This document shows, in pieces, positions 1 through 36,501 of a stretch of 37,466 nucleotides of DNA. The DNA comes from a virus, in the IMG/VR virus record IMGVR_UViG_3300030406_004894, positions 1 through 37,466 of that record, one strand, 5' to 3'. Every line of letters starts with the position of its first letter. Within the stretch, counting starts at the first letter, position 1. Below the pieces are notes generated by a model, which was given only the letters and a program-made list of their open reading frames with translations, did no database searches and had not been told where the DNA came from. A program made the translations under genes and the position numbers.

Positions 1-888
1 GAACTTTACCATAGAGATTTTTCTTCTGCTATGCAGCATGCATACAAGCATGCTAAGTCAAAGCTTGGAGTAGATGTTGACCCGGATGAGATTGATAGAA
101 AAGTTGCTATGGGGCCTCGCAAACCATCCAAGGGTAAGACAAACAAATACCGTCTTTTGGATAAGGATGGTAAGAAAGCGATTCAAGTTCAAGTCTATGG
201 TATGGACAATGGCAAGTATGAACTGAATATGTACAAAGAGTCTGTAGATGAAGGTTACAGAGATAAGCAGGATGCTTCCTACACTGACCGTTATGCTACG
301 GGCGGTAAAGATACTGCTGACATGCAGAAGCGTCGTAAGGCACTTATCCAAAAGGCTGCTGATCGTTTTAAAAAGACTGGTTCGTACACTGGTAAAAAAG
401 AGTCTGTAGAAGAACGTTACTCTGGCAAACAGGTAAAGATGGCTATGGGTATTGCCTCTGACCCTCGCTACAAGCAAGGTAATTATACAGGTGCTGTAAA
501 CAAAATTGAAAAGATTGCAAAAGGTTTGTCTAAGCATCCATCTGTTGCTTCTTATCTCAAGAAGATGAACGAATACCTTGAGATTGGTACAGATGATATT
601 CGTAAGACATATGCATCTGAAACTCCCGGCCAGGAAGTTGTTAAGGAATTGGCAACAGGCACAGACAGAGCAATTGCATTAGGTGCTATTGGTGCAACTG
701 CATATGCTGCAAAGAAAGCAAAAGATAGATTTGATCCTGTAAAAGTTGCTAAAGCAAGACAGGACCGTGCAGACAAAAGACAGGCACGTCAAGATGCTCA
801 AGATCAAATCAGACAGCAGAATAAAGCAAGACGTGAAAGAATGAGAGACCGCTTCAAGAGTAAACCAGCTCGGAGGCCTGCTGGATAA
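1..888 (+). CDS. Conserved marine-phage protein, probably structural/assembly (5' partial)
   Basis: The frame is open from the first base. The ten residues before the first ATG (position 31) read like coding sequence, so the true start most likely lies left of the window. The N-terminal part (M-Q-H-A-Y-K-H-A-K, then VDPDEID and GPRKPS) and a segment ending in ELNMYKE resemble proteins I know from the structural regions of marine T4-like phages; their function is not established. The protein is lysine- and arginine-rich. Residues about 225-285 form a strongly basic, Arg/Gln-rich tail that could be helical or bind nucleic acid. It ends at TAA, one base into the next gene (TAATG), so the two are probably translationally coupled. 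A structural or head-assembly role is inferred from family context only. Confidence 0.75.
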   Translation, partial: ELYHRDFSSAMQHAYKHAKSKLGVDVDPDEIDRKVAMGPRKPSKGKTNKYRLLDKDGKKAIQVQVYGMDNGKYELNMYKESVDEGYRDKQDASYTDRYATGGKDTADMQKRRKALIQKAADRFKKTGSYTGKKESVEERYSGKQVKMAMGIASDPRYKQGNYTGAVNKIEKIAKGLSKHPSVASYLKKMNEYLEIGTDDIRKTYASETPGQEVVKELATGTDRAIALGAIGATAYAAKKAKDRFDPVKVAKARQDRADKRQARQDAQDQIRQQNKARRERMRDRFKSKPARRPAG

Positions 889-1766
889 TGAAATCGTTTA
901 AGTTCTTTACGGAAGAGTTTTTAGCAGAAGAAGCACAGATGCTGATGGAGAAACTTATCACGTTCGGTGGTAAGGCATATCCTAAGTTTGGTAACGTTGT
1001 TATCATGGCTGGTGGTGCTGGTTCTGGTAAAGGATTTGTGCAAGACAGACTGGTTGGCCTAGAGGGTAAGTCTTTTGATCCTGATGAACTCAAAAAGTTG
1101 GCAGGTAAATCTCCACTTATCAATAAAAGAGTAAAAGATGAGTTTGGTGTAGACCTGAAGGACTTAGGCACTAAACTTAGAGTACCTGAAAATGTTTCTA
1201 AGTTACATGAAATTATTGGTGATGCACTGAACTTACCAAACAGAAAGCAAGCGGCATTCTTTGGTTCTGTCATGACAGCTGCCGCTGATCGCAAACCAAA
1301 TATTATTTTTGATACAACTCTTAAAGATGCTGGTAAGTTACAGAAACTTTCTCGGCAAGTTACAACACTTGGATATGATAAAAAGAACATCCATATTGTA
1401 TGGGTTGTAAATGATATTGAAATTGCAAAGAAGCAAAACTTAGAACGTCCTAGAGTTGTTCCTACAGAGATTTTAATCAATACTCATAGAGGTGCATCTA
1501 ATACTATGGGTGACATTCTCAAAATGGGTGAAACACTGCGCAAATATATGGACGGTGATCTTGTATTTGCGTTTAATAAAATTGGTGTAGACTCTGAGTT
1601 GGTTACAAGTAGAAAGGGTGGATCATACGTTAAAGAAGCAGATTACGTTTATATCAAACGTGCTGGTAAGTCACTGCCACCTTTAGATAAATTAAACAAA
1701 GCAATGCTTTCTAAAGTTAAATCATATGTTCCAAAGAACATTGATTGGGAGAACTTGGAACTATGA
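888..1766 (+). CDS. Zeta-toxin-like P-loop kinase
   Basis: A 292-residue protein with a clear Walker A loop at residues about 41-49 (AGGAGSGKG, Lys48), preceded by a beta strand (NVVIMA). This is the layout of zeta-toxin/polynucleotide-kinase-type P-loop phosphotransferases. A downstream IIFDTTLKD segment (about residues 138-146) fits the Walker B/substrate strand, and an Arg-rich stretch (LERPRVV) could form the lid. Such enzymes phosphorylate small molecules such as UDP-sugars, or nucleic acid ends; the substrate here is unknown. The start ATG overlaps the upstream TAA and has a good ribosome site (CGGAGG at 871-876). No antitoxin-like partner is visible, so I do not call it a toxin-antitoxin system. 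Confidence 0.75.
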   Translation: MKSFKFFTEEFLAEEAQMLMEKLITFGGKAYPKFGNVVIMAGGAGSGKGFVQDRLVGLEGKSFDPDELKKLAGKSPLINKRVKDEFGVDLKDLGTKLRVPENVSKLHEIIGDALNLPNRKQAAFFGSVMTAAADRKPNIIFDTTLKDAGKLQKLSRQVTTLGYDKKNIHIVWVVNDIEIAKKQNLERPRVVPTEILINTHRGASNTMGDILKMGETLRKYMDGDLVFAFNKIGVDSELVTSRKGGSYVKEADYVYIKRAGKSLPPLDKLNKAMLSKVKSYVPKNIDWENLEL

Positions 1767-5820: not shown

Positions 5821-5866
5821 TACTACACAATTTTAAAAATCACTCCAAAATTAAGAGGTGCGTTCT

Positions 5867-8083
5867 ATGACAAACGGTCTAGACATGAGGGACTTTTTAT
5901 CCCAAACAAAGTTTTACGAAGCTTATTCCCGATACATTGATGATGAAAACAGGTATGAAAGTTGGGACGAATCTGTAGACCGTGTTATGGCAATGCACAA
6001 AGATTATTATAAAGACAAAATGTCTACAGCATTGGTAAATGAGATGGCTGCTGCTTCCAATGCATATAAAGAAAAACGTGTACTTGGTGCGCAACGTGCC
6101 TTGCAGTTTGGTGGTGACCAACTGCTTAAACACCAGATGAAAATGTATAACTGTACATCTTCCTATGTTGACCGTGCTTCTTTCTTTGGCGAATACTTCT
6201 ATATCCTTCTGTGTGGTGCTGGCGCTGGTTTCTCTGTACAAAACCATCATGTCAACAAACTTCCTATGGTAGCAGAACGTAAGAAGCAAGCAAAAGGTTA
6301 TATTGTAGAAGATAGTATTGAAGGTTGGGCGTCTGCTCTTGATGTTCTCATGTCATCCTACTTTGTCGGTGGTGGCGTACATCCTGAGTTTGAAGGTCGG
6401 CGTGTATTCTTTGATATGACTAATATTCGTCCAAAGGGTGCAAAGATTTCCGGTGGATTTAAAGCTCCCGGTCCTGATGGTCTGAGACAAGCACTGGACC
6501 GTATTGAGTATCTTATTCAGGGCATTGTAATGTCTTCTAAAGACCCTGTACAACTCCGTCCTATCCATGTATACGATATTGCCATGCATTGTGCTGATGC
6601 GGTCCTGTCGGGTGGTGTGAGACGTTCTGCAACCATCTGTCTGTTCTCTCCTGATGACACAGAGATGATGAATGCTAAGACTGGTAACTGGTTTGTAGAT
6701 AATCCACAACGTGCACGTTCTAATAACTCTGCTGTGATTGTTCGTAAAGAAACTAAGAAAGAAGACTTTATGGCAATCATGGATAGCATTAAACAGTTTG
6801 GTGAACCGGGATTTGTATTTGTTGAGTCTACTGAACACACCACTAACCCATGTGTTGAGATTGGTATGTTCCCACAGATTGATGGACAGTCTGGCTGGCA
6901 AGGGTGTAACCTGACAGAGATTAATGGTGGTCTTTGTGTAGATGAAGAATCATTCTACAAGGCATGTGAAGCAGCATCTATCCTTGGTACACTACAGGCT
7001 GGTTATACTGACTTTAAATTCCTTCCAGATACTACAAAGCAAATCTTTGACCGTGAAGCATTGCTTGGTGTATCTATCACTGGATGGATGAACAACCCGG
7101 AGATTTTGTTTGATGAAAAGATTTTGGAAAAAGGTGCCAAGATTGTTAAAGATACTAATAAGAGAGTTGCTGATCTTCTCGGGATTAATCCTGCTGCTCG
7201 GACTACTTGCGTTAAGCCTAGTGGCAATGCTTCTGTACTCTTGGGAACAGCAAGTGGAATCCACGCTGAACACTCTGAGAGGTATATCAGAAATATCCAA
7301 CTAAACAAAGATTCTGAAGTTGCACAACTCATTGCTAAAACAAATCCAGAGATGGTAGAAGACTCTGTATGGTCTGCTTCTGGAACTGATTGGGTTGTAT
7401 CTTTCCCAATTACACCAAAGCAAGGTTCTATTCTGAAAGATAAACTTATTGGAACTGACCACCTTGAATTGGTTGCAAAGGCACAAAAGCATTGGGTAAA
7501 TACTGGTAAGAACAAAGAACTTTGTGCAGACCCTACAGTATCACATAACGTATCAAATACTATTCTAGTAGAGGATTGGGATGATGTTGCTGAATATGTT
7601 TATAGCAATAGGAATAACTTCGCTGGTATTTCTTTCTTGTCTACTTCTGGCGATAAGGATTTTAATCAAGCGCCGAACACTGAAGTCATCGACGCTGAAA
7701 AGATGGTGGAAAAATATGGCGTGGCGGCTGTTCTAGCATCTGGTCTGGTAGTAGATGGACTTGCTGCTTTTGGTGACCTTTGGATGGGCTGCCAGACCGC
7801 ACAAGGTTTCGGTGAAGATATCTCAGCTGAAAACTCTAAGAACACTCTGAAGAAAGATTGGGTGCGACGCTTCCAAGCATTTGCTGATAAATACCTTGAA
7901 GGTGACCTTAAGAGAACTGAGTACTGCCTGAAGGATGCATTCCTTATTCACAAGTGGGAAAAAATCAAAAGGTCTTACATGCAAGTAGAATGGATCAGTG
8001 AACTGTCTGAAAAGAAATACACTGATGTTGACACTCTTGGTGCAGCAGCCTGTGCAGGTGGTGCTTGCGAGATTGACTTTTAG
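5867..8083 (+). CDS. nrdJ: Class II (adenosylcobalamin-dependent) ribonucleotide reductase
   Basis: A 738-residue monomeric B12-dependent ribonucleotide reductase, which makes deoxyribonucleotides for phage DNA synthesis without oxygen or a separate radical-generating subunit. Signatures include the NCTSS motif near residue 98, SGGVRRSA of class II enzymes, the active-site loop NPCVEI with the predicted thiyl-radical Cys at residue 329, the redox partner in GWQGCNLTEING, and the C-terminal reducing Cys pair C729-x4-C734 (CAGGACEI). NPCVEI carries Val where many homologues have Gly. I chose the ATG at 5867, about 9 nt after AAGAGG, over an in-frame GTG at 5858 that overlaps this ribosome site. 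It has its own promoter and is followed by a mini zinc ribbon and a terminator. A need for B12 implies a B12-making or B12-importing host. Confidence 0.95.
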   Translation: MTNGLDMRDFLSQTKFYEAYSRYIDDENRYESWDESVDRVMAMHKDYYKDKMSTALVNEMAAASNAYKEKRVLGAQRALQFGGDQLLKHQMKMYNCTSSYVDRASFFGEYFYILLCGAGAGFSVQNHHVNKLPMVAERKKQAKGYIVEDSIEGWASALDVLMSSYFVGGGVHPEFEGRRVFFDMTNIRPKGAKISGGFKAPGPDGLRQALDRIEYLIQGIVMSSKDPVQLRPIHVYDIAMHCADAVLSGGVRRSATICLFSPDDTEMMNAKTGNWFVDNPQRARSNNSAVIVRKETKKEDFMAIMDSIKQFGEPGFVFVESTEHTTNPCVEIGMFPQIDGQSGWQGCNLTEINGGLCVDEESFYKACEAASILGTLQAGYTDFKFLPDTTKQIFDREALLGVSITGWMNNPEILFDEKILEKGAKIVKDTNKRVADLLGINPAARTTCVKPSGNASVLLGTASGIHAEHSERYIRNIQLNKDSEVAQLIAKTNPEMVEDSVWSASGTDWVVSFPITPKQGSILKDKLIGTDHLELVAKAQKHWVNTGKNKELCADPTVSHNVSNTILVEDWDDVAEYVYSNRNNFAGISFLSTSGDKDFNQAPNTEVIDAEKMVEKYGVAAVLASGLVVDGLAAFGDLWMGCQTAQGFGEDISAENSKNTLKKDWVRRFQAFADKYLEGDLKRTEYCLKDAFLIHKWEKIKRSYMQVEWISELSEKKYTDVDTLGAAACAGGACEIDF

Positions 8084-9185: not shown

Positions 9186-9353
9186 ATGCTCGTTTCTCAA
9201 ATTGACCGTCTCAAAAAAGATTATCGTGAACTTGAACATTATGAAAGAAAACTCGTAAAACAAGGGAGAGATACTTTAGTAAGGCAAATGAAATTGAAAC
9301 GGGACTATCTGGGTAGATCAATAAAAGATTTGGAGGAACAACTTTTTCGTTGA
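9186..9353 (+). CDS. 55-residue coiled-coil protein
   Basis: M-L-V-S-Q-I-D-R-L-K-K is followed by a Lys/Glu/Arg-rich helix with regular leucines up to LEEQLFR, so a short coiled coil is likely. AAGGA at 9172-9176 is 9 nt before the ATG at 9186. An in-frame ATG at 9177 sits directly on the ribosome site and is less likely. The TGA stop lies inside the TTGACA -35 box of the next promoter. Function unknown. Confidence 0.6.
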   Translation: MLVSQIDRLKKDYRELEHYERKLVKQGRDTLVRQMKLKRDYLGRSIKDLEEQLFR

Positions 9354-9378
9354 CAAGACATAAAAACTGATATATAAT
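9350..9378 (+). promoter_or_regulatory. Consensus sigma70 promoter
   Basis: TTGACA (9350-9355), exactly 17 nt, TATAAT (9373-9378): a perfect consensus promoter. Transcription would start near 9385, only a few bases before a terminator-like hairpin. Confidence 0.85.
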
Positions 9379-9391
9379 CTATATGTCTTTT

Positions 9392-9430
9392 GGGGCGAGG
9401 GAATATATACTTCTCGCCCCTTTCTTATCT
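9392..9430 (+). terminator. GC-rich hairpin with U-rich tail, terminator or short RNA
   Basis: GGGGCGAG (9392-9399) pairs perfectly with CTCGCCCC (9413-9420) around a 13-nt AT-rich loop, followed by TTTCTTATCT. It would end transcripts from upstream, and also those from the consensus promoter at 9350, leaving an RNA of about 40 nt. Confidence 0.7.
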
Positions 9431-9633: not shown

Positions 9634-9810
9634 ATGTATGTAACACCTTGTGTGTCTCTTTGCAAGATAGAGGGTGGTGAGTGTATTGGTTGCGGCCGCA
9701 CTAGAGAACAGATTGCAAGGTGGACTAGATACACTGATGAAGAAAGACTTGACATAATGCGTAAATTAGGGTATGGTAATAAACGTACCCAACGCAGGAA
9801 TAAACCATGA
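9634..9810 (+). CDS. DUF1289-like Cys-rich small protein
   Basis: A 58-residue protein: TPCVSLCKIEGGECIGCGRT, then a segment with IARWTRY and EERLDIM. Cys positions C-x3-C and C-x2-C, and the GCGRT...E..RW pattern, match the DUF1289 family found mostly in Proteobacteria (function unknown, possible iron or zinc binding). The ATG at 9634 lies 3 nt after the tRNA-Leu CCA end with no ribosome site of its own. A longer frame would have to start inside the tRNA. It overlaps the next gene by ATGA. Confidence 0.85.
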   Translation: MYVTPCVSLCKIEGGECIGCGRTREQIARWTRYTDEERLDIMRKLGYGNKRTQRRNKP

Positions 9811-10385
9811 ATATTTTCTATCTTGATCCCAATCCAGTCAAAGCAGCACAGATGCATTGTGACCAGCATGTACATAAGATGCTGTTAGAGACTGCTCAAA
9901 TGCTGTCTACTGCACACAGAATGCTGGACGGGACCAAGACTAAACGTTCATCAGTATCAGGTAAACGCATGGTAGACTACTATGTACACCCTGATCCTGT
10001 ACTAGAACATACACTCTACAAAGCAGTGCACTTCAAGCATCCATCTAATATATGGATTCGTCAAACTATGGAACAGTATGGCTGGGCAAAAGATTTGATG
10101 AATGCACTTGCTGATGAGTATGAGTATCGTTTTGGCAAGCAACACGGCACTGCTCTTACTGTCCTACCGTATCTTCAACTTCCACCTAAGTCTATGAAAA
10201 TGAATGGTGGTTGGACTCCACCCCCTCAGTGTATGGACGATTACCTCAAACGTTCTAACACAGTACAGGCATATCGGGACTTTTATATCCACGAAAAATC
10301 TAAGTTTGCACGGTGGAAAAAAACACGAAAAAGTCCAAATTGGTACTTGACAAACCCTACTCAAGATACTATATTAAGTATGTAA
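9807..10385 (+). CDS. Conserved marine-phage protein, MNIFYLDP family
   Basis: A 192-residue protein. The N-terminus (IFYLDPNPVKAAQMHCDQHV, then HKMLLETAQMLSTAHR) has several conserved-looking His, Cys, Glu and Arg residues in a helix pair. I recognise this signature from marine phages but know of no function. The middle is rich in His, Trp and Pro (HPSNIWIRQTMEQYGWAKDL; LPPKSMKMNGGWTPPP), and the C-terminus (KSKFARWKKTRKSPNWY) is basic, so nucleic acid binding is possible. ATGA overlap with the DUF1289-like gene. Its last codons contain the -35 box of the next promoter. Confidence 0.7.
   Translation: MNIFYLDPNPVKAAQMHCDQHVHKMLLETAQMLSTAHRMLDGTKTKRSSVSGKRMVDYYVHPDPVLEHTLYKAVHFKHPSNIWIRQTMEQYGWAKDLMNALADEYEYRFGKQHGTALTVLPYLQLPPKSMKMNGGWTPPPQCMDDYLKRSNTVQAYRDFYIHEKSKFARWKKTRKSPNWYLTNPTQDTILSM
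10347..10375 (+). promoter_or_regulatory. Sigma70-type promoter (TATATT cassette, copy 1)
   Basis: TTGACA (10347-10352), 17-nt spacer ending in TAC, TATATT (10370-10375). It lies inside the 3' end of the preceding gene and drives the run of small genes from 10404. The -10 and downstream bases (10368-10389) are repeated exactly at 36269-36290. Confidence 0.7.
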
Positions 10386-10389
10386 GAGA
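10368..10389 (+). repeat. 22-bp direct repeat at a promoter -10 region, copy 1
   Basis: Identical to 36269-36290. It starts ACTATATTAAGTATG and ends GTAAGAGA; the bases cover the -10 box and the predicted start site. Confidence 0.85.
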
Positions 10390-10403: not shown

Positions 10404-10550
10404 ATGATTGAACAGATTAAAAGTTACATTGCTGCTTGTGAAGCAAACCTTGCTAAGTATCAGCAGATTGAAGACCCTGTTGAACGTGAACGTGCTGTTG
10501 CTGCCTGTGAAGGTATGATTGCAGACTTTAAAGCACTTATTGAGGAATAA
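10404..10550 (+). CDS. 48-residue unknown protein
   Basis: A small helical protein (M-I-E-Q-I-K-S-Y-I-A-A-C-E...) with two related halves: YIAACEANLAKY and AVAACEGMIADF. This suggests a two-helix hairpin with one Cys in each helix. AAAGGTAAG precedes the start. It is first in a run of five overlapping or closely packed small genes driven by the promoter at 10347. Function unknown. Confidence 0.65.
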   Translation: MIEQIKSYIAACEANLAKYQQIEDPVERERAVAACEGMIADFKALIEE

Positions 10551-13178: not shown

Positions 13179-14819
13179 ATGGAAGTCACATCAAAGAAAA
13201 ATATTCTTCTTGGTAATTTTAATCACATTCCACTTTGGGAAAGTAAAAAAACTAAGAAATATGCAACATCAGAAGGATTAGATGCATGGTTGCCTTATTC
13301 CTCTGGATGTTTGATTTGGCATGCCATAAAAAATCCAAAAATTAATAAAAAATACAATTTCTACGATCCTTTATTCATACCTAAACCTGTAGAAGAATTT
13401 GATGATATTTTGTCAGAGACAGATATTTTTGGATTGACCAACTATACATGGAATCAATATTATAGTGATTTAATCTCTGAGCATTATAAAAAAATTAAAC
13501 CTGATGGTATTGTAGTATATGGTGGGCCACAAGTACCTAAACACAAGGATGTATTAGAAAAGTATAGAGAAGATCGTCCTTGGGTTGATGTACACATAGA
13601 AGGTCTAGCAGAATATGCATTTGAAGAATGGTTATTAGATGAACCTATCAGTGGTAATAAAATTAGAGAACTTCCGACGCCATATAGTGATGGTATTTTT
13701 GACTATGTTTTTGATAATCCAGAAAAATATAATGTAGGAAGAATAATGGTCCCTGTAGAAACTGATAGGGGTTGTCCATATAAATGTGCTTTTTGTGATT
13801 GGGGTGGCAATGCGAGTAGTAAAATCACAAAGTTTGAGTTACAAAAATGTGTAGATGAACTAGAGTTTTTATACAAGAAAAAAGTGAATAGCATGTTTAT
13901 TACAAATGCTAACTTTGGCATTTTTAAAGATGATGTGACTGTTTTGGAAAAGATGGTAGATTTCCAAGAAAAGTATAATCATAAGGTTAATGTTATTTAC
14001 GGTGGTCTTGCAAAAAATGGTAGTAAAAATCTAACCAAAATTGTTGACTTATTAGAGAATCAACTTTCTCTTACTCAAAATAATATGAAAGTTAGTTTTC
14101 AAACCCACACACCAGAAGTGCTAGAGATTATTGATAGAGCAAATATTAAGAATGAAAAACTTTTACCTGTTATTGCAGAACAAAAAGCTTTAGGTAATGA
14201 AATCACAGCAGAAATGATTATCACTCTTCCCGGTGAAACTGCTGACAGTTGGCTTCAAACCTTACATCATAATATACACAATCTTGGTATTGACAAGACC
14301 ATGACGTTTATTGCTCTTGTAGTTGCTAACACTTCTTTTGGTACACCAGAATATCAAGAAAAACACAAGATTAAAACAAAAAAGGTATTTTTTAGTAAAT
14401 TCCAATACTATGAAATTATGTATGAGTCACTAAGTTTTGATTTAGAAGAATTAGTAAAAATGTTTGACTACCAATGGTTCTGGCATAATTTTGTTAACAC
14501 TAACATTGCAACGGATAAAATTTATGATTTAACAAAACAGACAAAAGATTTTTATGATAATTTAGATGAATACCCTATCTTGAGTAGTTGTGTGGAGATG
14601 CAAAGAAATTTGATAAGAAGAGTTTTTGCACCTGAAAGCGAAACCACAATTACTGATGAGTTTGAAACTATCTGGTTTACTAGAAGTATGAGAATGGGTG
14701 AATTGAAAGTTATGGCAGACAACTATATACAAACAGAACAAGAACTAGAAAAGTTGTTTGGTGAAAAAATTAATGTAGATTGGGCAAAATTTAATATGCC
14801 CCTTAGATGGACTTATTAG
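13179..14819 (+). CDS. Radical SAM enzyme with N-terminal B12-binding-like domain
   Basis: A 546-residue protein. The N-terminal 170 residues look like a Rossmann-type cobalamin-binding domain (NILLGNFNHIPLW; GIVVYGGPQVP; IEGLAEYAFEEWL) but without an obvious D-x-H-x-x-G motif. The radical SAM core has the cluster Cys199-x3-Cys203-x2-Cys206 (RGCPYKCAFC), followed by later core strands (AEMIITLPGET). The family carries out methylations and other difficult C-H or C-C chemistry. The ATG is only 5 nt downstream of the tRNA-Arg CCA end, without a ribosome site. Its sequence differs clearly from the tandem radical SAM pair at 32522-35841. Target unknown. Confidence 0.85.
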   Translation: MEVTSKKNILLGNFNHIPLWESKKTKKYATSEGLDAWLPYSSGCLIWHAIKNPKINKKYNFYDPLFIPKPVEEFDDILSETDIFGLTNYTWNQYYSDLISEHYKKIKPDGIVVYGGPQVPKHKDVLEKYREDRPWVDVHIEGLAEYAFEEWLLDEPISGNKIRELPTPYSDGIFDYVFDNPEKYNVGRIMVPVETDRGCPYKCAFCDWGGNASSKITKFELQKCVDELEFLYKKKVNSMFITNANFGIFKDDVTVLEKMVDFQEKYNHKVNVIYGGLAKNGSKNLTKIVDLLENQLSLTQNNMKVSFQTHTPEVLEIIDRANIKNEKLLPVIAEQKALGNEITAEMIITLPGETADSWLQTLHHNIHNLGIDKTMTFIALVVANTSFGTPEYQEKHKIKTKKVFFSKFQYYEIMYESLSFDLEELVKMFDYQWFWHNFVNTNIATDKIYDLTKQTKDFYDNLDEYPILSSCVEMQRNLIRRVFAPESETTITDEFETIWFTRSMRMGELKVMADNYIQTEQELEKLFGEKINVDWAKFNMPLRWTY

Positions 14820-14828
14820 GAGAATATA

Positions 14829-15263
14829 ATGTTGTTTCTTGGTGTAGGCGCAGTTATGTTTACTGCAACTTTGTTTATTGGTGGCTGGGTATTGTATGAC
14901 CAGTTCTGGGGTGGTGAAAAAGAAGACACTACTGAAAGTGAAACTCCTACTGTAGCATACTATGCAGAAGCAGAATGGTTTTCAGAACCACAGGCTGGAA
15001 TTAAATATCTTGTAGAAGATGATGATGGTATTGACGCAGACCTGACACTAAATGCTGTGATGGATTGGGTTGAGGCAGATGAACCTAATATCTGGACAGG
15101 TGATTGGGAAGTCAAAGTCTGGACTTGGAATGATGCTGGTGTCGTTTCTATTAATGGTGATGCTTCTACTCTGATTGAAGACCGTTATGATGATGTTGAA
15201 GTTCCTTACTTTACTGGTGATGGATTTATTGAACATGCAACAGTTGACTTAGACTTTACATAA
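14829..15263 (+). CDS. Membrane-anchored protein of unknown function
   Basis: A 144-residue protein. One N-terminal transmembrane segment (LFLGVGAVMFTATLFIGGWV) is followed by an acidic soluble domain rich in Trp, Asp and beta-type residues (WTGDWEVKVWTWNDAGVV), ending ATVDLDFT. The first segment is probably a membrane anchor with the rest in the periplasm or cytoplasm. AGGAG precedes the ATG. No family recognised. Confidence 0.6.
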   Translation: MLFLGVGAVMFTATLFIGGWVLYDQFWGGEKEDTTESETPTVAYYAEAEWFSEPQAGIKYLVEDDDGIDADLTLNAVMDWVEADEPNIWTGDWEVKVWTWNDAGVVSINGDASTLIEDRYDDVEVPYFTGDGFIEHATVDLDFT

Positions 15264-15268
15264 AATTA

Positions 15269-15288
15269 GAAACGATAGTTGAAAAAAA
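15269..15288 (+). repeat. 20-bp direct repeat upstream of a promoter, copy 1
   Basis: GAAACGATAGTTGAAAAAAA, identical to 36214-36233. It lies 3 nt upstream of the -35 box at 15292, in the position of an UP element or activator site. Confidence 0.8.
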
Positions 15289-15291
15289 GGC

Positions 15292-15320
15292 TTGAAATCT
15301 TATCCAAGATGTACTATATT
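15292..15320 (+). promoter_or_regulatory. Sigma70-type promoter (TATATT cassette, copy 2)
   Basis: TTGAAA (15292-15297), 17-nt spacer ending in TAC, TATATT (15315-15320). The AA after the -10 box resembles the promoters at 10347 and 36248. It would drive the 15349 gene, the tRNA-Pro, the candidate RNA, tRNA-Thr and possibly guaC. Confidence 0.65.
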
Positions 15321-15348
15321 AATAATGTAGTGTTGACAGAGAAGAGTT

Positions 15349-15549
15349 ATGAAAGCAACCATTCTTAAAATTATCGGTGAGGAACACCTGAGCCTGCATC
15401 AGTATCCCGGCTATTTTGTCTGGACGTATGATGACGGTGATACCTATGAAGAGCAGAGTGTCTATGTAGATAAGATCACTCACCTGACTACTCAGCAATG
15501 GGTAGAAGATGGTCAAGCGTTTATGGAGTATGTTAAAGCTGATAAGTAG
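15349..15549 (+). CDS. 66-residue unknown protein
   Basis: A small, acidic protein starting MKATILKIIGEEHLSLHQY, then FVWTYDDGD and a C-terminal helix (EDGQAFMEYVKAD). AGAAGAG precedes the ATG. It ends 2 nt before tRNA-Pro and shares its promoter. Function unknown. Confidence 0.55.
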   Translation: MKATILKIIGEEHLSLHQYPGYFVWTYDDGDTYEEQSVYVDKITHLTTQQWVEDGQAFMEYVKADK

Positions 15550-15628: not shown

Positions 15629-15815
15629 ATAGGATTTCCTGCGACGGCAGGAATGGTATAGTGACTGAATAATCCGTGGCAGATGCGGATAAGGTAATAC
15701 CGAAGGGGTTTAGCGGCCCGTCTTAGCGGATGCAGGTAGGTTTGGACCGAGTAGACAGGAGTTTGCCAGTGGTCCATTGTGGGTAATCCTTAATCCCACC
15801 TATACATTTTATTAT
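15629..15815 (+). ncRNA. Candidate structured RNA between tRNA-Pro and tRNA-Thr (unidentified)
   Basis: No gene fits this stretch of about 187 nt, but it is dense in helices. TTCCTGC/GCAGGAA (15636-15642 with 15647-15653) has a GACG loop. GGTAT/ATACC (15655-15659 with 15697-15701) encloses ATCCG/CGGAT (15672-15676 with 15686-15690). GGACC/GGTCC pairs 15744-15748 with 15771-15775, and GTGGG/CCCAC pairs 15779-15783 with 15795-15799. Loops appear to pair with each other: 15677-15683 with 15762-15768 (7 bp, one G-U), and 15631-15636 with 15785-15790 (6 bp). It does not look like tmRNA, RNase P RNA, 6S or a cobalamin riboswitch. It should be co-transcribed with the tRNAs and released by tRNA processing. 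Confidence 0.45.
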
Positions 15816-21119: not shown

Positions 21120-21852
21120 ACTTCATTATAAAGAAAATGACTATGCTTGGAATCATGCCAATAAAATTGGAGCGCATAAATTTATTAATGCTCTGAAAGA
21201 TGTTAAACCATCTACATCAAATAAACCTTGGGTGTTAAAGATTTATGAGATTGACAAACTCCCAAAAAATTGGCGTTGTAAACAGGTTGAAGAAACTCTT
21301 TCATCAGATGACTTAATTGGACCTACTGGATCAGTGTATGCCACATACACAACACGGGATGAACTGGTTAATAAACATATCAATATTGGATTAAAGAATA
21401 ATCAATACTATGTTCATCCCGGTACGCAAAGGTATTTACTGAACTGTGTAGAAGATGATTTTGAAATTTCTGCTCTAATAATTGATTATGATCAAAATGA
21501 AGAAAAGATATTGAAAGATTTTCCTGATGCCAAAGTTGCAAGTTCAGAAGATATGGACTTTCACTTTCATAAATCAGGTGACAGTTATACTATTAAATTA
21601 AATTCTGGGTGGCCATATGAATGGTCTTGGGAAAGTTTCACACTGGAAGCAATTAATTTTTATGAATACATATGGCCAAATTCTGATCATTCTGTGAATA
21701 TTTTTCTTGACAAACGTAAGTTAATATCGTATGATAATGAGAAACCTAACATGAATGTCTATGTTGATGATATCTATGGTTGGGCAAGGTTTATTATTGA
21801 TTACTACTGTGAAAGAAAACTGACATATAATGGATACCAGACGGACATTTGA
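21109..21852 (+). CDS. Unknown 247-residue protein, possibly related to 19850-20773
   Basis: No domain recognised. Motif order (KIYEIDKLPKNW, NCVEDDFEISALI, then SVNIFLDKRKLISYDNEKP, MNVYVDDIYG and FIIDYYC) parallels that of the protein two genes upstream, although identity is low. The protein is rich in Asp and aromatic residues. The start overlaps the cupin gene and the end overlaps the nuclease gene. The cupin lies between the two relatives, so the trio may work together. Function unknown. Confidence 0.6.
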   Translation: MPNKLHYKENDYAWNHANKIGAHKFINALKDVKPSTSNKPWVLKIYEIDKLPKNWRCKQVEETLSSDDLIGPTGSVYATYTTRDELVNKHINIGLKNNQYYVHPGTQRYLLNCVEDDFEISALIIDYDQNEEKILKDFPDAKVASSEDMDFHFHKSGDSYTIKLNSGWPYEWSWESFTLEAINFYEYIWPNSDHSVNIFLDKRKLISYDNEKPNMNVYVDDIYGWARFIIDYYCERKLTYNGYQTDI

Positions 21853-31928: not shown

Positions 31929-32525
31929 ATGGCTAGAGTAGTTCATATTATTGGTAATGGTGATAATGCTGTTCATTACAAACCTGCAAAGGGTTTGAAG
32001 ATCACATGCAATCTGCCCCCATTTGAAGTACCCAATGTGTATGTTTCTTGTATGGTTGATTTCAAGATGATGAAAGCAATCACAGAAGGTAGTGTTATAA
32101 ATCCTTATCCGTGGGTTCTTGGAGTAAGACCTAAGAAGTGGATGGAGATGCGACAAAGCTTCTATATGAAATACTCCCCACAAGTAAAAGAATTCTATGA
32201 GGTTTTGCCTAAATATGCAAAGAACTATACTGATTTCAATTGTGGTCACTTTGCAACTCACTATGCAGCAAACAAATTAAAGGCGGACGAAATTCACATC
32301 TATGGTTTTGATTCTATTATGGATTTTGATATTCGGTCCAAAACCGATTTCTATCTTCCATCTGATCGGGGAGCCACTAATACCGAAAGATTGACCCGTG
32401 TATGGCGCCCAATCTTCCAAGGGATTTTTAAAGAGTTTAGTGGTACGCAATTTGTTATCCATCATAAACATGATAACGTTCCATTTAAAAAACCAGATAA
32501 TTTAGATATTAAGGTTCACAAATGA
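31929..32525 (+). CDS. Conserved phage protein with GNGDN-type Rossmann motif
   Basis: A 198-residue protein. The N-terminus VVHIIGNGDNAVHY is a nucleotide-binding-like loop. FNCGHFATHYAANKLKADEI, then IYGFDSIM and later SDRGATNTERL are motifs I know from glycan clusters of marine phages, resembling MptE/DUF115-like or sialyltransferase-like folds. I take ATG 31929, with AGGAG 12 nt upstream, although a TTG at 31899 is open in frame. The last codons overlap the radical SAM gene by 4 nt. Confidence 0.65.
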   Translation: MARVVHIIGNGDNAVHYKPAKGLKITCNLPPFEVPNVYVSCMVDFKMMKAITEGSVINPYPWVLGVRPKKWMEMRQSFYMKYSPQVKEFYEVLPKYAKNYTDFNCGHFATHYAANKLKADEIHIYGFDSIMDFDIRSKTDFYLPSDRGATNTERLTRVWRPIFQGIFKEFSGTQFVIHHKHDNVPFKKPDNLDIKVHK

Positions 32526-34219
32526 TTGCCAATCCAAGGGTATTACTTGTATACCCTAACATTCCATTAATGTTCTCTCCACCTATTTCTATGGCAATTC
32601 TTACATCTATTTGTAAGGAAATGAATGCCCCTGTAGATTTATTTGAAACAACAGCTTATACAGACCAATTTCAAAGTCGGAGAATTGCAACAAAAAAGTC
32701 TGGTCACCAAGGTAGAGCAGAATTAGATGCAAATGATTGGATTGATATCAAACCATCCAAACAAGCTGTTCCTGACTTTATTGCTAAAGTAGAAGAATTT
32801 AAACCAGACCTTATCTTAGTTTCTTGTGTAGAAGATTCTTTTAGTGTTGGTATTGATCTATTAGAATCTATCCGGGATAAAAATATCCCTAATATCATGG
32901 GTGGTGTATTCACTACATTTGCTCCTGAAGAAGTCCTAAAGTATGATGTTGTAAATCAACTTTGTCATCAAGAAGGCGAGCAAGTTGTTAGAGATGCTAT
33001 TACATGCTTGCGTGAAGGCAATCCTCTTCATGACATTAGAGGCACTACCTATAGATTTGATGATCATGCACAAAAGAACCTTCCTGCTGATCTAGTAGAT
33101 ATTAATGAAGTTACGCCAGACTTTGAATTTTTTGATAAGAAAAGGTTTGGACGTTTTCAGGGTGGACGTTGGTTCAACTTTTCTATGCAGATGGAAACAT
33201 ATCGTGGTTGCCCCTATTCTTGCACATACTGCAACTCTCCCGGCCAAAGAGCATTCTCTAAAGATGCTGGAACTGGCAACTTTATGAGAAGAAAGTCTGC
33301 TGATGTTATTAAAGCAGAGTTTGAAACTTTCTTTGAACGGCACCAAGTAGATCATGTAAACTTTGTTGATGACTCATTCCTAGCAAGACCAATGAAAGAA
33401 TTGGAGGCGTTTGCAAAAGTTTGGAGTGAACACAAAACTCCTTTCTGGTGCAACACTCGCATTGAAAACTGCACTCCTGAAATCATGCAGATGATGAAAG
33501 AGTGTGGTATGTACAGAATTACATTTGGTCTTGAGTCTGGTAACGAAGAATATAGAAGAGACTTCCTGAAAAGAAATGTTACTAATGAAAAGTATCTACA
33601 GCATATTGACTATGTGAATAAGTCTAATGTTCCATACTCTATCAATGTTATTATTGGTATGCCCTATGAGACAAAAGAAATGGCACTAGACTCTGCTAGA
33701 TTTTCTAGAGAGTGTGGTGGACATGATTCCTTTACTGTGTCGGCATGGTCACCTTATCACGGTACTGAGTTAAGAGATATTGCAGTTGAAGCTGGTTTTA
33801 TGAAAGCTGATCTAACATGGACACTTGAGCAAAAACTTGGTAAAGGTGATGGCAGTAATGATGGATTTAGAACACCATTAATTAAAATGCCAAAACCTTA
33901 TCTACAGCCAGAAGAAATTTCTGATTTAGTTCAGTTATTTCCACTTTATGCTTATTACCCTGATGAAATGTGGCCTGAGATTGATGCCAAAGAAAATATT
34001 GATAAACTGTTAGAAATTCGTAATAAAGAATACTACGGTGCAGAATATCAGGAAGGTGGTCAAGAAAAGATTGACAGACTGCAAAAAGCATGGCAAGATA
34101 GAAGTAATAAGGTCAAGAAATTTACTCCAAAGCAAACTGCTGAATGGGTAAAGGCATGGTCTATTGGTTGTGCTAATCATGATCCTAGTATTGAAGATCA
34201 TTTTGGAGTTGTCGCTTGA
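32522..34219 (+). CDS. B12-binding-type radical SAM enzyme (tandem copy 1)
   Basis: A 565-residue protein. Residues 1-170 form a cobalamin-binding-like Rossmann domain (PRVLLVYPNIPLMF, DLILVSCVEDSF, NIMGGVFTTF, CHQEGEQVVRDA); the canonical D-x-H-x-x-G is absent. The radical SAM core has Cys230-x3-Cys234-x2-Cys237 (RGCPYSCTYC), then NFVDDSF and ITFGLESGNEEYR. The C-terminus ends in WSIGCANHD. The family methylates or rearranges unreactive carbons. Strongly similar, motif by motif, to the next gene. It overlaps the upstream gene by 4 nt. Confidence 0.9.
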   Translation: MIANPRVLLVYPNIPLMFSPPISMAILTSICKEMNAPVDLFETTAYTDQFQSRRIATKKSGHQGRAELDANDWIDIKPSKQAVPDFIAKVEEFKPDLILVSCVEDSFSVGIDLLESIRDKNIPNIMGGVFTTFAPEEVLKYDVVNQLCHQEGEQVVRDAITCLREGNPLHDIRGTTYRFDDHAQKNLPADLVDINEVTPDFEFFDKKRFGRFQGGRWFNFSMQMETYRGCPYSCTYCNSPGQRAFSKDAGTGNFMRRKSADVIKAEFETFFERHQVDHVNFVDDSFLARPMKELEAFAKVWSEHKTPFWCNTRIENCTPEIMQMMKECGMYRITFGLESGNEEYRRDFLKRNVTNEKYLQHIDYVNKSNVPYSINVIIGMPYETKEMALDSARFSRECGGHDSFTVSAWSPYHGTELRDIAVEAGFMKADLTWTLEQKLGKGDGSNDGFRTPLIKMPKPYLQPEEISDLVQLFPLYAYYPDEMWPEIDAKENIDKLLEIRNKEYYGAEYQEGGQEKIDRLQKAWQDRSNKVKKFTPKQTAEWVKAWSIGCANHDPSIEDHFGVVA

Positions 34220-35841
34220 AGGTTCTAATCCTTTATCCAAATTTGCCTATGATGTTTACCCCTGCACTTAGTGTGGGGTTATTCACTGCTATCTGCAAAG
34301 AAGAAGATGTTGAAGTAGATATTTTTGAAACAACATATCATTCTGATCAGTTTAAAAATAGACATGTTACTTTGACTAGTGTTGGTGCAAATCAAACATC
34401 TGATGCGGAAGAGTTTTTTGAAATTCGTGACCCTGACAATCTAATAAGTGATTTTCAACTTAAAGTCAAAGAATATAATCCAGATTTAATTTTAATGTCT
34501 GTAGCAGAAGATACTTACAAACTTGGTATTGAACTGCTAGAATCTATTCGTGAAAAGAATATTCCTAATATAGTTGGCGGTGTGTTTGCTAGAGAAGCAA
34601 GAGATATGCTGTTGCAACATGATGTGGTTAATCAAGTATGTCATCATGAGGGTGAATATGTTGTCAGAGATGCTATCCATGCATGGAAGAGAAATGAGTC
34701 TTTAGAAAATATCAAAGGAACTACTTACAGGTACAAAGATCATGCGCACACAAATGTAGAGCAAGAACTTTGTAACATTGCGGCTATCACCCCGGACTTC
34801 TCTTTGTTTGATGATTCTCGCTGGGCAAGACCTATGGGTGGTAGAGTATTCCAGAGAGTTGTGCCAATGGAGACTTACAGGGGTTGTCCATACAATTGTA
34901 CATACTGCAACTCACCATCACAACGTGCTTTCTCCAAAGAAAATAATCAAGGCAATTTCATGCGTCGTAAAGATGCTAGAGTGATTGAAAAAGAAATTGT
35001 CGCAATTATTGAAAAGCATGATCCTGAAATGATTATGTTTATGGATGATTCTTTCTTGGCTAGACCAAAAAAAGAGATTGAAGAGTTTTCAAAGGTTTGG
35101 TCAAAATACAAAATTCCATTCTGGATGAATACTCGTATTGAAAATTGTACACCAGAAACAATGTCCATGATGAAAGAGGCTGGATGTTATCGCATGTCAT
35201 TTGGTCTTGAGTCTGGCAATGAGAAGTTCCGCAAAGATATTCTGAGCAGAAATGTAACAAACGAAACATACTTAAAGCATATGGAGTATATCAATGAATC
35301 TGATATTCCATATAACTTCAATATCATACTTGGCATGCCATATGAAACGCCAGCAATGGTAGAAGAGACTGCTCGGTTTACCAGAGAATGTCGTGGTTGG
35401 GATGCACTAACTATTGCATCTTTTGTTCCATATCGTGGTACTGGTCTTAGAAACCTTGCTGTCAATGCTGGATTTCTAGACCCAAATTATGTTTCTAGGG
35501 GTGGGTTCCTTACAGAATGGGTGCTGAATATGCCAAAACCATATATTCAACACGACGAAGTTTTTGATTATCTCAAAATCTTTACCTTACTTTCTTTCTT
35601 TCCTGATGAGAGATGGCCTGAGATTAAAGCATCTCTGAAAAATAAAAGTCAATATGATAATCTTATGAAAGAATATAAGTCTCTACAATGGTCTGAGTAT
35701 CAAGAAGGTGGAAAGACCCGTATTGCAAGACTGAATAAAAAAGTAAAACAAAAATACAAAGAACCATTTGGCATTAAAGCATGGTCTAAAGGATGTGCTA
35801 ATCATGATGAAAGTTCATCTTTGATGTTTTCAGTGGCTTGA
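34216..35841 (+). CDS. B12-binding-type radical SAM enzyme (tandem copy 2)
   Basis: A 541-residue paralogue of the preceding protein, with the same domain order. The core has Cys224-x3-Cys228-x2-Cys231 (RGCPYNCTYC), NSPSQRAFSKE, GNFMRRK, MSFGLESGNE and WSKGCANHD near the end. TTG at 34216 is the likely start. It gives the beta strand KVLILYPN that copy 1 also has, GGAG lies 8 nt upstream, and TTGA overlaps the stop of copy 1. The duplication looks recent in gene order but old in sequence. Its TGA stop is inside a TTGACA box. Confidence 0.9.
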   Translation: MKVLILYPNLPMMFTPALSVGLFTAICKEEDVEVDIFETTYHSDQFKNRHVTLTSVGANQTSDAEEFFEIRDPDNLISDFQLKVKEYNPDLILMSVAEDTYKLGIELLESIREKNIPNIVGGVFAREARDMLLQHDVVNQVCHHEGEYVVRDAIHAWKRNESLENIKGTTYRYKDHAHTNVEQELCNIAAITPDFSLFDDSRWARPMGGRVFQRVVPMETYRGCPYNCTYCNSPSQRAFSKENNQGNFMRRKDARVIEKEIVAIIEKHDPEMIMFMDDSFLARPKKEIEEFSKVWSKYKIPFWMNTRIENCTPETMSMMKEAGCYRMSFGLESGNEKFRKDILSRNVTNETYLKHMEYINESDIPYNFNIILGMPYETPAMVEETARFTRECRGWDALTIASFVPYRGTGLRNLAVNAGFLDPNYVSRGGFLTEWVLNMPKPYIQHDEVFDYLKIFTLLSFFPDERWPEIKASLKNKSQYDNLMKEYKSLQWSEYQEGGKTRIARLNKKVKQKYKEPFGIKAWSKGCANHDESSSLMFSVA

Positions 35842-35892: not shown

Positions 35893-36204
35893 ATGCCACG
35901 AGGCCGTCCAAAGGGTTCTAAGAACAAACCCAAGAATGTAGTCAAGACACCTGAAGTAGAAGTTGATAACTACTTCTCACGAATTGCAGAAATTGGTGAT
36001 AAACCTATTATTTCAAACTGGAATGCCAAGAAGGGTGAGTATACCTCACGCATGTATGGCAGCCTTAATGATATCATTCGGGTTATTGAACCTGATGGAG
36101 TTATCTCTTTACAGGGTAACAATATCATTCAATCTGTAGACAAAAAGAATGTCCGCACTCTGACTGATGGTCGGAAGTTTGATGGTATGGGTTGGCCAGT
36201 TTAG
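35893..36204 (+). CDS. Small AT-hook-like DNA-binding protein
   Basis: A 103-residue protein beginning MPRGRPKGSKNKPKN, where RGRPKGSKNK is an AT-hook-like motif for the minor groove of AT-rich DNA. The rest is a small beta-rich domain (GEYTSRMYGSLNDIIRVI, then DGVISLQGN). AAAAGGAG precedes the ATG. Possible nucleoid or regulatory protein of the phage; no proof. Confidence 0.7.
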   Translation: MPRGRPKGSKNKPKNVVKTPEVEVDNYFSRIAEIGDKPIISNWNAKKGEYTSRMYGSLNDIIRVIEPDGVISLQGNNIIQSVDKKNVRTLTDGRKFDGMGWPV

Positions 36205-36213
36205 ATAAAATCC

Positions 36214-36233
36214 GAAACGATAGTTGAAAAAAA
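36214..36233 (+). repeat. 20-bp direct repeat upstream of a promoter, copy 2
   Basis: Identical to 15269-15288. It lies upstream of a terminator hairpin and of the promoter at 36248, 14 nt from the -35 box. Confidence 0.8.
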
Positions 36234-36240
36234 ATTAAAA

Positions 36241-36268
36241 AAGGGGCTTGCAATTGCGGCCCCTTTTT
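36241..36268 (+). terminator. Rho-independent terminator with an embedded -35 box
   Basis: AAGGGGC (36241-36247) pairs with GCCCCTT (36259-36265), 11-nt loop TTGCAATTGCG, followed by TTT. It should end the AT-hook transcript. The loop holds the -35 hexamer of the next promoter. Confidence 0.8.
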
Positions 36269-36276
36269 ACTATATT
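36248..36276 (+). promoter_or_regulatory. Sigma70-type promoter (TATATT cassette, copy 3) inside a terminator
   Basis: TTGCAA (36248-36253), 17-nt spacer ending in TAC, TATATT (36271-36276). The -35 is in the terminator loop and the spacer includes the 3' stem and T run. It drives the gene at 36308. Confidence 0.65.
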
Positions 36277-36290
36277 AAGTATGTAAGAGA
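36269..36290 (+). repeat. 22-bp direct repeat at a promoter -10 region, copy 2
   Basis: Identical to 10368-10389 over the -10 box and the predicted start site. Confidence 0.85.
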
Positions 36291-36307: not shown

Positions 36308-36478
36308 ATGACCAATCTTGAAAATGCATACGTTGCTGCTTTCAACGAAGCAATCCAGATGTTGGAAATGATGGAAGACCTTGAGATTCGGTCTGCTCTG
36401 AAGCAAAGTGCATGGGACAACGGCATTGAAGAAGTGCAGTCCTATGTAGAGTGGGCAGAGAAAATTCTGTTCGCATAG
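36308..36478 (+). CDS. 56-residue unknown protein
   Basis: Starts MTNLENAYVAAFNEAIQMLE and continues MMEDLEIRSALKQSAWDNGI, ending VEWAEKILFA. It is helical and acidic. I believe close relatives occur in marine phages, without function. The promoter at 36248 lies just upstream; GAGAGAAAGAGAG could serve as a ribosome site. Confidence 0.65.
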   Translation: MTNLENAYVAAFNEAIQMLEMMEDLEIRSALKQSAWDNGIEEVQSYVEWAEKILFA

Positions 36479-36501
36479 TAACTAAAGAAAGGAATTGCCA
36501 G

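Follow-up and report, generated by a model that had tools for sequence, protein, structure and literature searches.

The repeat that links two distant loci in the genome of an uncultured virus is very likely the −10 and start part of a sigma-70-type, probably early, promoter family, the fuller form of which is a gene-border cassette of a T4-like lineage. This cassette spans about 95–115 bp. It opens with a 29-bp box located at the stop codon of the preceding gene or immediately past it, continues with an optional terminator hairpin that has the −35 hexamer in its loop and the −10 hexamer right behind its T run, and closes with a purine-rich leader that runs to the next ATG. The promoter itself is ordinary, and the gene-exchange cassette with its unexplained invariant box is the more interesting feature.

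The stretch analyzed, hereafter the window, comprises all 37,466 nucleotides of the 37-kb virus contig IMGVR_UViG_3300030406_004894. A 68-kb contig (G001) belongs to the same virus (99.9% over 30.7 kb), and the sister contig G002 is IMGVR_UViG_3300006793_000238. T4-type proteins occur in this virus and a relative; baseplate wedge and hub/lysozyme proteins, PhoH and a B12-dependent ribonucleotide reductase indicate a myovirus of the T4-like kind. Among named DNA, Marine virus AG-345-L05, assigned to Kyanoviridae, comes nearest, with a match over 3% of the query. PhoH is nearest to that of Synechococcus phages (about 50%), and the best cultured match of the reductase is in Rhizobium phage RHph_I1_18 (60.7% over 97%). 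Beside the reductase gene (5858–8083) occur genes for three radical SAM proteins (13179–14819, 32522–34219 and 34216–35841, plus strand), the two adjacent ones having a B12-binding domain and about 65% mutual DNA identity, a tandem duplication. An ORF at 888–1766 (plus strand) carries a zeta-toxin-like kinase domain (PF06414, 7.1e-9) and matches phrog_5268 over its full length.

Three copies of a promoter in the window

The 22-bp repeat reported in a preliminary description of this DNA is borne out at coordinates one base lower, where TACTATATTAAGTATGTAAGAGA is identical over 23 bases at 10367–10389 and 36268–36290, including 11 bases past the −10 hexamer. With up to three mismatches the 22-mer occurs at only these two window sites (0 of 100 dinucleotide shuffles held any), and the start and leader motif recurs in many unrelated viral contigs. 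The copy at 10.3 kb overlaps the 3′ end of ORF 9807–10385, whose TAA lies inside the repeat. As for the third copy, TACTATATTAA is exact at 15312–15322 (plus strand), one base below the claimed 15313, and is by itself weak evidence because the 11-mer with one mismatch allowed has five window matches against 1.4 expected. The ORFs behind the three copies, the first and last of which had been described as unrelated, have no PHROG family in common, and two of the three match none. The 15.3- and 36.2-kb places have a second common repeat upstream, which is 34 bp long and 91% identical (D10). A manA RNA (RF01745; 65.2 bits, gathering threshold 55.2) stands at 15637–15809 (plus strand), between tRNA-Pro and tRNA-Thr; promoter 2 with its small gene precedes it by 300 bp.

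Table 1. Positions of the promoter copies, boxes, hairpin and downstream genes in the window.
Feature	Position	Strand	Details
Promoter 1	10347–10375	+	TTGACA (10347–10352), 17 bp, TATATT (10370–10375)
Repeat copy 1	10367–10389	+	Covers −10 and presumed start region; no box, no terminator; fold z −1.0
Gene behind promoter 1	10404–10550	+	48 aa; other gene in L078 and L143
Box, 15.3-kb copy	15260–15288	+	ATAAAATTAGAAACGATAGTTGAAAAAAA; begins at stop codon of ORF 14829–15263
Promoter 2	15292–15320	+	TTGAAA at 15292, 17 bp, TATATT; shares TACTATATTAA (15312–15322); no terminator hairpin
Gene behind promoter 2	15349–15549	+	66 aa, phrog_23727
Box, 36.2-kb copy	36205–36233	+	ATAAAATCCGAAACGATAGTTGAAAAAAA; directly after TAG of ORF 35893–36204
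Terminator-like hairpin	36238–36268	+	AAAAAGGGGC...GCCCCTTTTT, −35 in loop; −18.9 kcal/mol, z −3.5
Promoter 3	36248–36276	+	TTGCAA (36248–36253), 17 bp, TATATT (36271–36276)
Repeat copy 2	36268–36290	+	Covers −10 and presumed start region
Gene behind promoter 3	36308–36478	+	56 aa; different gene in sister contig G002

All three copies show a sigma-70-like layout, with a −35-like hexamer, a 17-bp spacer and TATATT (Table 1). A scan of viral contigs with TATATTAA(G/T)(A/T)ATGTAAG gave at least 119 stretches, from which 106 distinct sites, two of them the window's own, were drawn as a sample; 105 were used for −35 spacing, L011 being dropped as it is without upstream sequence. Among these listed matches, exact TTGACA stands at a spacer of 16–18 bp in 35 of the 105 sites (3 at 16, 29 at 17 and 3 at 18 bp) and at any other spacer from 4 to 49 bp in none. 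This confinement points to a true promoter class. The remaining 70 of the 105 listed sites are without exact TTGACA in place, some having a near one, and many of them, which by eye lie within coding sequence, are probably chance matches. When the 10.3-kb site is compared across four contigs, the −35 (6/6) and the −10/start block (18/18) are identical in every column, as are 10 of 17 spacer columns and 70 of 90 columns of the preceding coding stretch.

The suggestion that these sites form a promoter class under common control by a phage factor thus holds in its first part, through the TTGACA spacing. Its second part is not borne out, with scores of 9 to 12 out of 12 for the sites against TTGACA/TATATT and the upstream box present at only two of the three copies. 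Given such scores, the host sigma-70 polymerase should read the promoters unaided, and action of a phage factor on them is possible. Early expression of the class is inferred from its sigma-70 type together with the presence of a distinct late motif of T4 type, the T4 late promoter sequence TATAAATA. In this virus and in G003 that motif is placed a short way ahead of several structural genes; with totals near background (8 against 6.1; 13 against 9.1), its positions alone support the late-promoter reading. A leader peptide in the ATGAAAGAGAG leader was ruled out by eye, as it is missing from AGAGAGAAAGAGAG-type leaders.

Scores of 11 or 12 out of 12 are reached at 19 sites in 75 kb, compared with 6–12 in eight random sequences, so the genome has additional sigma-70-like promoters, and a few of these are of a different type (TATAAT at 9350 and 36973). 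The matrix scan was trained on sites picked by the exact motif and is biased toward that motif. A 16-mer scan of genome contigs returned, among the matches listed, scattered bacteria and was uninformative. Positions 9350–9430 (plus strand) hold a perfect TTGACA-17-TATAAT promoter with a strong hairpin behind it, and both G002 and G003 have counterparts; in the three related viruses the arms differ and the loop is similar, GAATATA(T)AC, and the element may be a structured leader or small RNA.

The upstream box and the terminator hairpin

The promoter repeat seen in the preliminary description stands as one part of the pattern, while the box, the 36.2-kb terminator and the gene exchange had been overlooked. 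The box common to the 15.3- and 36.2-kb places reads ATAAAAT(TA/CC)GAAACGATAGTTGAAAAAAA and is absent at the 10.3-kb copy, so that two of three window copies carry it. In the cases read, it starts either at the stop codon of the preceding gene or directly behind it, and it folds into a 3-bp stem only. The exact box 18-mer has 23 matches in 22 viral contig stretches, 20 with a promoter behind (two of these, identical copies, were removed) and three, in L041, L049 and L055, without one. The working set of 30 box sites leaves out L041, L049, L055, L082 and L111, which have at most three mismatches and are without a cassette, and all four-mismatch rows, including L036:6767 and L053:678, which combine perfect promoters with half a box. 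Copy number differs among genomes, with six box sites in 96 kb in G003, three of them within 2.3 kb, and two in 75 kb in the window's virus.

The box is the most conserved part of the cassette. Its distance to the −10 hexamer is 46–48 bp in 9 of the 30 sites and 55–58 bp in the other 21, with none between; the two distances are about one helical turn apart. This spacing is consistent with a protein bound along one face of the helix and also with two fixed layouts. The box occurs in three variants: GAAACG (18 sites), TTTACA(C/T)G (9) and AAAACG (3). TTTACACGATAG is found in five of six G003 sites and both G004 sites, and GAAACGATAG in the window's clade. Since G003 has five TTTACAC and one AAAACG, the variant change is only partly genome-wide. 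BLAST against 50,697 phage records did not find the box, the best match in cultured phages being 19 exact bases, and the motif strings were found in no paper among open main texts. Kinship with the matched Klebsiella phages was rejected, as only query positions 33–90 align (A-run, hairpin and −10 start), not the box; the KLB24 match sits between a tip attachment gene and a hypothetical gene, and the matching record of Klebsiella cp17 carries no annotation. The box was also considered as a T4 late promoter, since ATAAAAT resembles TATAAATA, and this was rejected because, unlike TATAAATA, the box is not placed a short way ahead of structural genes.

One of the three window copies, that at 36.2 kb, has a terminator-like hairpin, which is placed between the box and the −10 hexamer, is followed by a T run and is matched in fold by 1 of 200 shuffles. 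No stem-loop was detected at the 15.3-kb copy, where the fold is not better than shuffles (z +1.1), or at the 10.3-kb copy, where it is no better than shuffles or nearly so. Across the 30 box sites, hairpin strength is −13 kcal/mol or better in 16, intermediate in 6 and weaker than −5 kcal/mol in 8. The arms vary (GGAGGG/CCCTCC, GGGGGC/GCCCCC, GGGGC/GCCCC) yet are predicted to pair in each site, as read from single folds; an alignment of nine hairpins was shifted in two rows, so no covariation statistic was drawn from it. A different arrangement is seen at L027:9552 and on the reverse strand of L034 at 4793 (G3f and G4b), where the −10 lies within one arm of a long inverted repeat, GAATATAGG(A/G)CTTT ... 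AAAGTCCTATATTC, instead of a T run behind. The reverse complement of G002 near 13687 carries a terminator-promoter fusion without a box, GGGGGTTGACAGACCCCCTTTTTT...TATATT, and window positions 21123–21825 have no DNA match in G002 where this fusion stands.

Exchange of genes at the cassette

The contigs compared are metagenome assemblies, and the counts cannot be treated as independent because the sites share descent. Grouped by the 200 bases that precede the box, the 30 sites form 12 groups; grouped by the first 150 bases of the next gene, 29 of them form 17. Upstream genes U0 and U1 are each found joined to downstream genes D0, D2 and D4, and the reverse is also seen, with different upstream genes before the same downstream gene; the break lies at the cassette. 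Pairwise comparison used 18 of the 30 sites, near-duplicates and singletons (G7b, G5, G6, L43, L48, G3a, G3b, G3c, G3e, L58b, L96a and L96b) having been removed. In 22 pairs with the same upstream and different downstream genes, identity is 0.80 upstream, 0.92 in the box and 0.48 downstream (shuffled 0.45). In the six pairs with different upstream and the same downstream genes, it is 0.49 (shuffled 0.47), 0.95 and 0.81, respectively. Box identity is still 0.90 in 123 pairs unrelated on both sides. A mobile insertion element was rejected, as terminal repeats were not seen by eye in the 18 cassettes compared.

All three window copies show a change of partner at the promoter or cassette. The gene preceding the 10.3-kb copy is joined to another downstream gene in L078 and L143, with the same break, and in L040 the gene ahead of the 15.3-kb copy has a different downstream partner. 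Upstream of the 36.2-kb copy stands a gene that is joined to three others elsewhere, one in G002 and G004, one in L050 and one in G003. The match between G002 and the window runs to 36311 and resumes at 36484, so the two differ in the small gene enclosed.

In the proposed mechanism, the host polymerase would read the promoters into the small genes (48, 66 and 56 aa in the window) early in infection, and the hairpin, where present, would stop the transcript of the preceding gene. Homologous recombination between cassettes would then swap genes, each new gene arriving with a promoter. Since near-identical cassettes stand at several borders, recombination could exchange the gene behind a cassette while leaving genes unbroken and promoters in place. 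The cassette may serve as a DNA signature predicting where such phages exchange small genes.

The role of the box and relation to known systems

That the copies arose by chance convergence toward a strong sigma-70 promoter, or by a single recent duplication, with no cassette involved, is very improbable. Convergence is conceivable for the 10.3-kb copy, which shares the promoter alone, but it leaves 11 identical bases beyond the −10 hexamer out of 23, as well as the recurrence of the start and leader motif across many unrelated contigs, to be accounted for, and at 15.3 and 36.2 kb the box makes it difficult to maintain. It is also unlikely that the sites form a regulon under a phage-encoded factor that would bind the box as an operator and switch them together. 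The box could bind a factor: its conservation between otherwise unlike sites goes beyond the need of sigma-70, and its two distances, about one helical turn apart with none between, suit such binding. These distances may, however, be the layouts without and with the hairpin, a view weakened in turn by L044 and L053, which have the long distance without a strong hairpin. Moreover, the core promoters are near consensus, no regulator was identified, and the boxless 10.3-kb copy means that a site common to all members is missing. In a more elaborate form, the box is the operator of a phage regulator, the cassette is a mobile operator-promoter-terminator unit, and the box positions and the TTTACACGATAG/GAAACGATAG variants reflect co-change of factor and site. 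This form is quite improbable; if true, a swapped-in gene would at once come under the phage's own regulon.

A doubtful but tenable alternative is that the box has no role in initiation and is recombination homology only, or a 3′-end element of the upstream transcript. Where it starts, at the upstream stop codon or directly behind it, agrees with this, as does the exchange of genes at the cassette, but the box is kept in terminator-less sites (the 8 of 30 weaker than −5 kcal/mol) and forms only a 3-bp stem, and recombination alone leaves the fixed distances to the −10 hexamer unexplained. The preferred reading, a promoter family with a gene-border cassette as its fuller form, extends promoter-terminator gene shuffling to an uncultured T4-like lineage. 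In it the invariant box allows a direct test of whether a gene swap also swaps regulation.

Several known systems resemble parts of this arrangement. Alphaproteobacterial sigma-70 promoters have the form CTTGAC-N17-CTATAT, which looks the same as the (C)TTGACA-N17-(C)TATATT found here. The T4 late promoter TATAAATA differs from the class in sequence and position. A whole scan of RHph_I1_18 gave four sites of 11/12, none with a cassette, and there the box is at least three mismatches away. PeSL (promoter-early stem-loop) cassettes of T4-type phages were reportedly described by Arbiol et al. in 2010 and Comeau et al. in 2014. PeSLs are marked by promoter and terminator activity in infected cells, excised mini-circles and high density in the hyperplastic region, and we know of no such upstream box in published ones. 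Parts of PMC4503421 and PMC3950731 report PeSLs as shuffling cassettes in T4-like phages, and passages of PMC7029224, PMC2993671, PMC5931544 and PMC5348500 describe no such cassette. In haloarchaeal virus HGTV-1, according to part of PMC3950731, a conserved promoter with an inverted-repeat motif precedes many ORFs. There too a promoter-like motif recurs together with an inverted repeat, and a part in regulation and shuffling has been proposed for it, but the promoter is archaeal and TATA-like, the virus belongs to another group, and the likeness is one of description.

The closest likeness is to PeSLs, which also couple a sigma-70-like promoter to a stem-loop terminator at the borders between genes, occur more than once in a genome, mark gene exchange with one flank kept and the other changed, and lie in T4-like phages. 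The 36.2-kb copy combines promoter, stem-loop, exchange point and T4-like phage. The 10.3- and 15.3-kb copies are classed on their sequence as promoters of the family, not PeSLs, because the stem-loop is missing. Unlike in PeSLs, a 29-bp box of fixed sequence stands upstream at one of two distances from the −10 hexamer, the −35 hexamer lies inside the terminator loop, and many copies, two of three in the window, are without a terminator. The pattern is known from T4 cousins, and the novelty here is the extra, unexplained conserved box.
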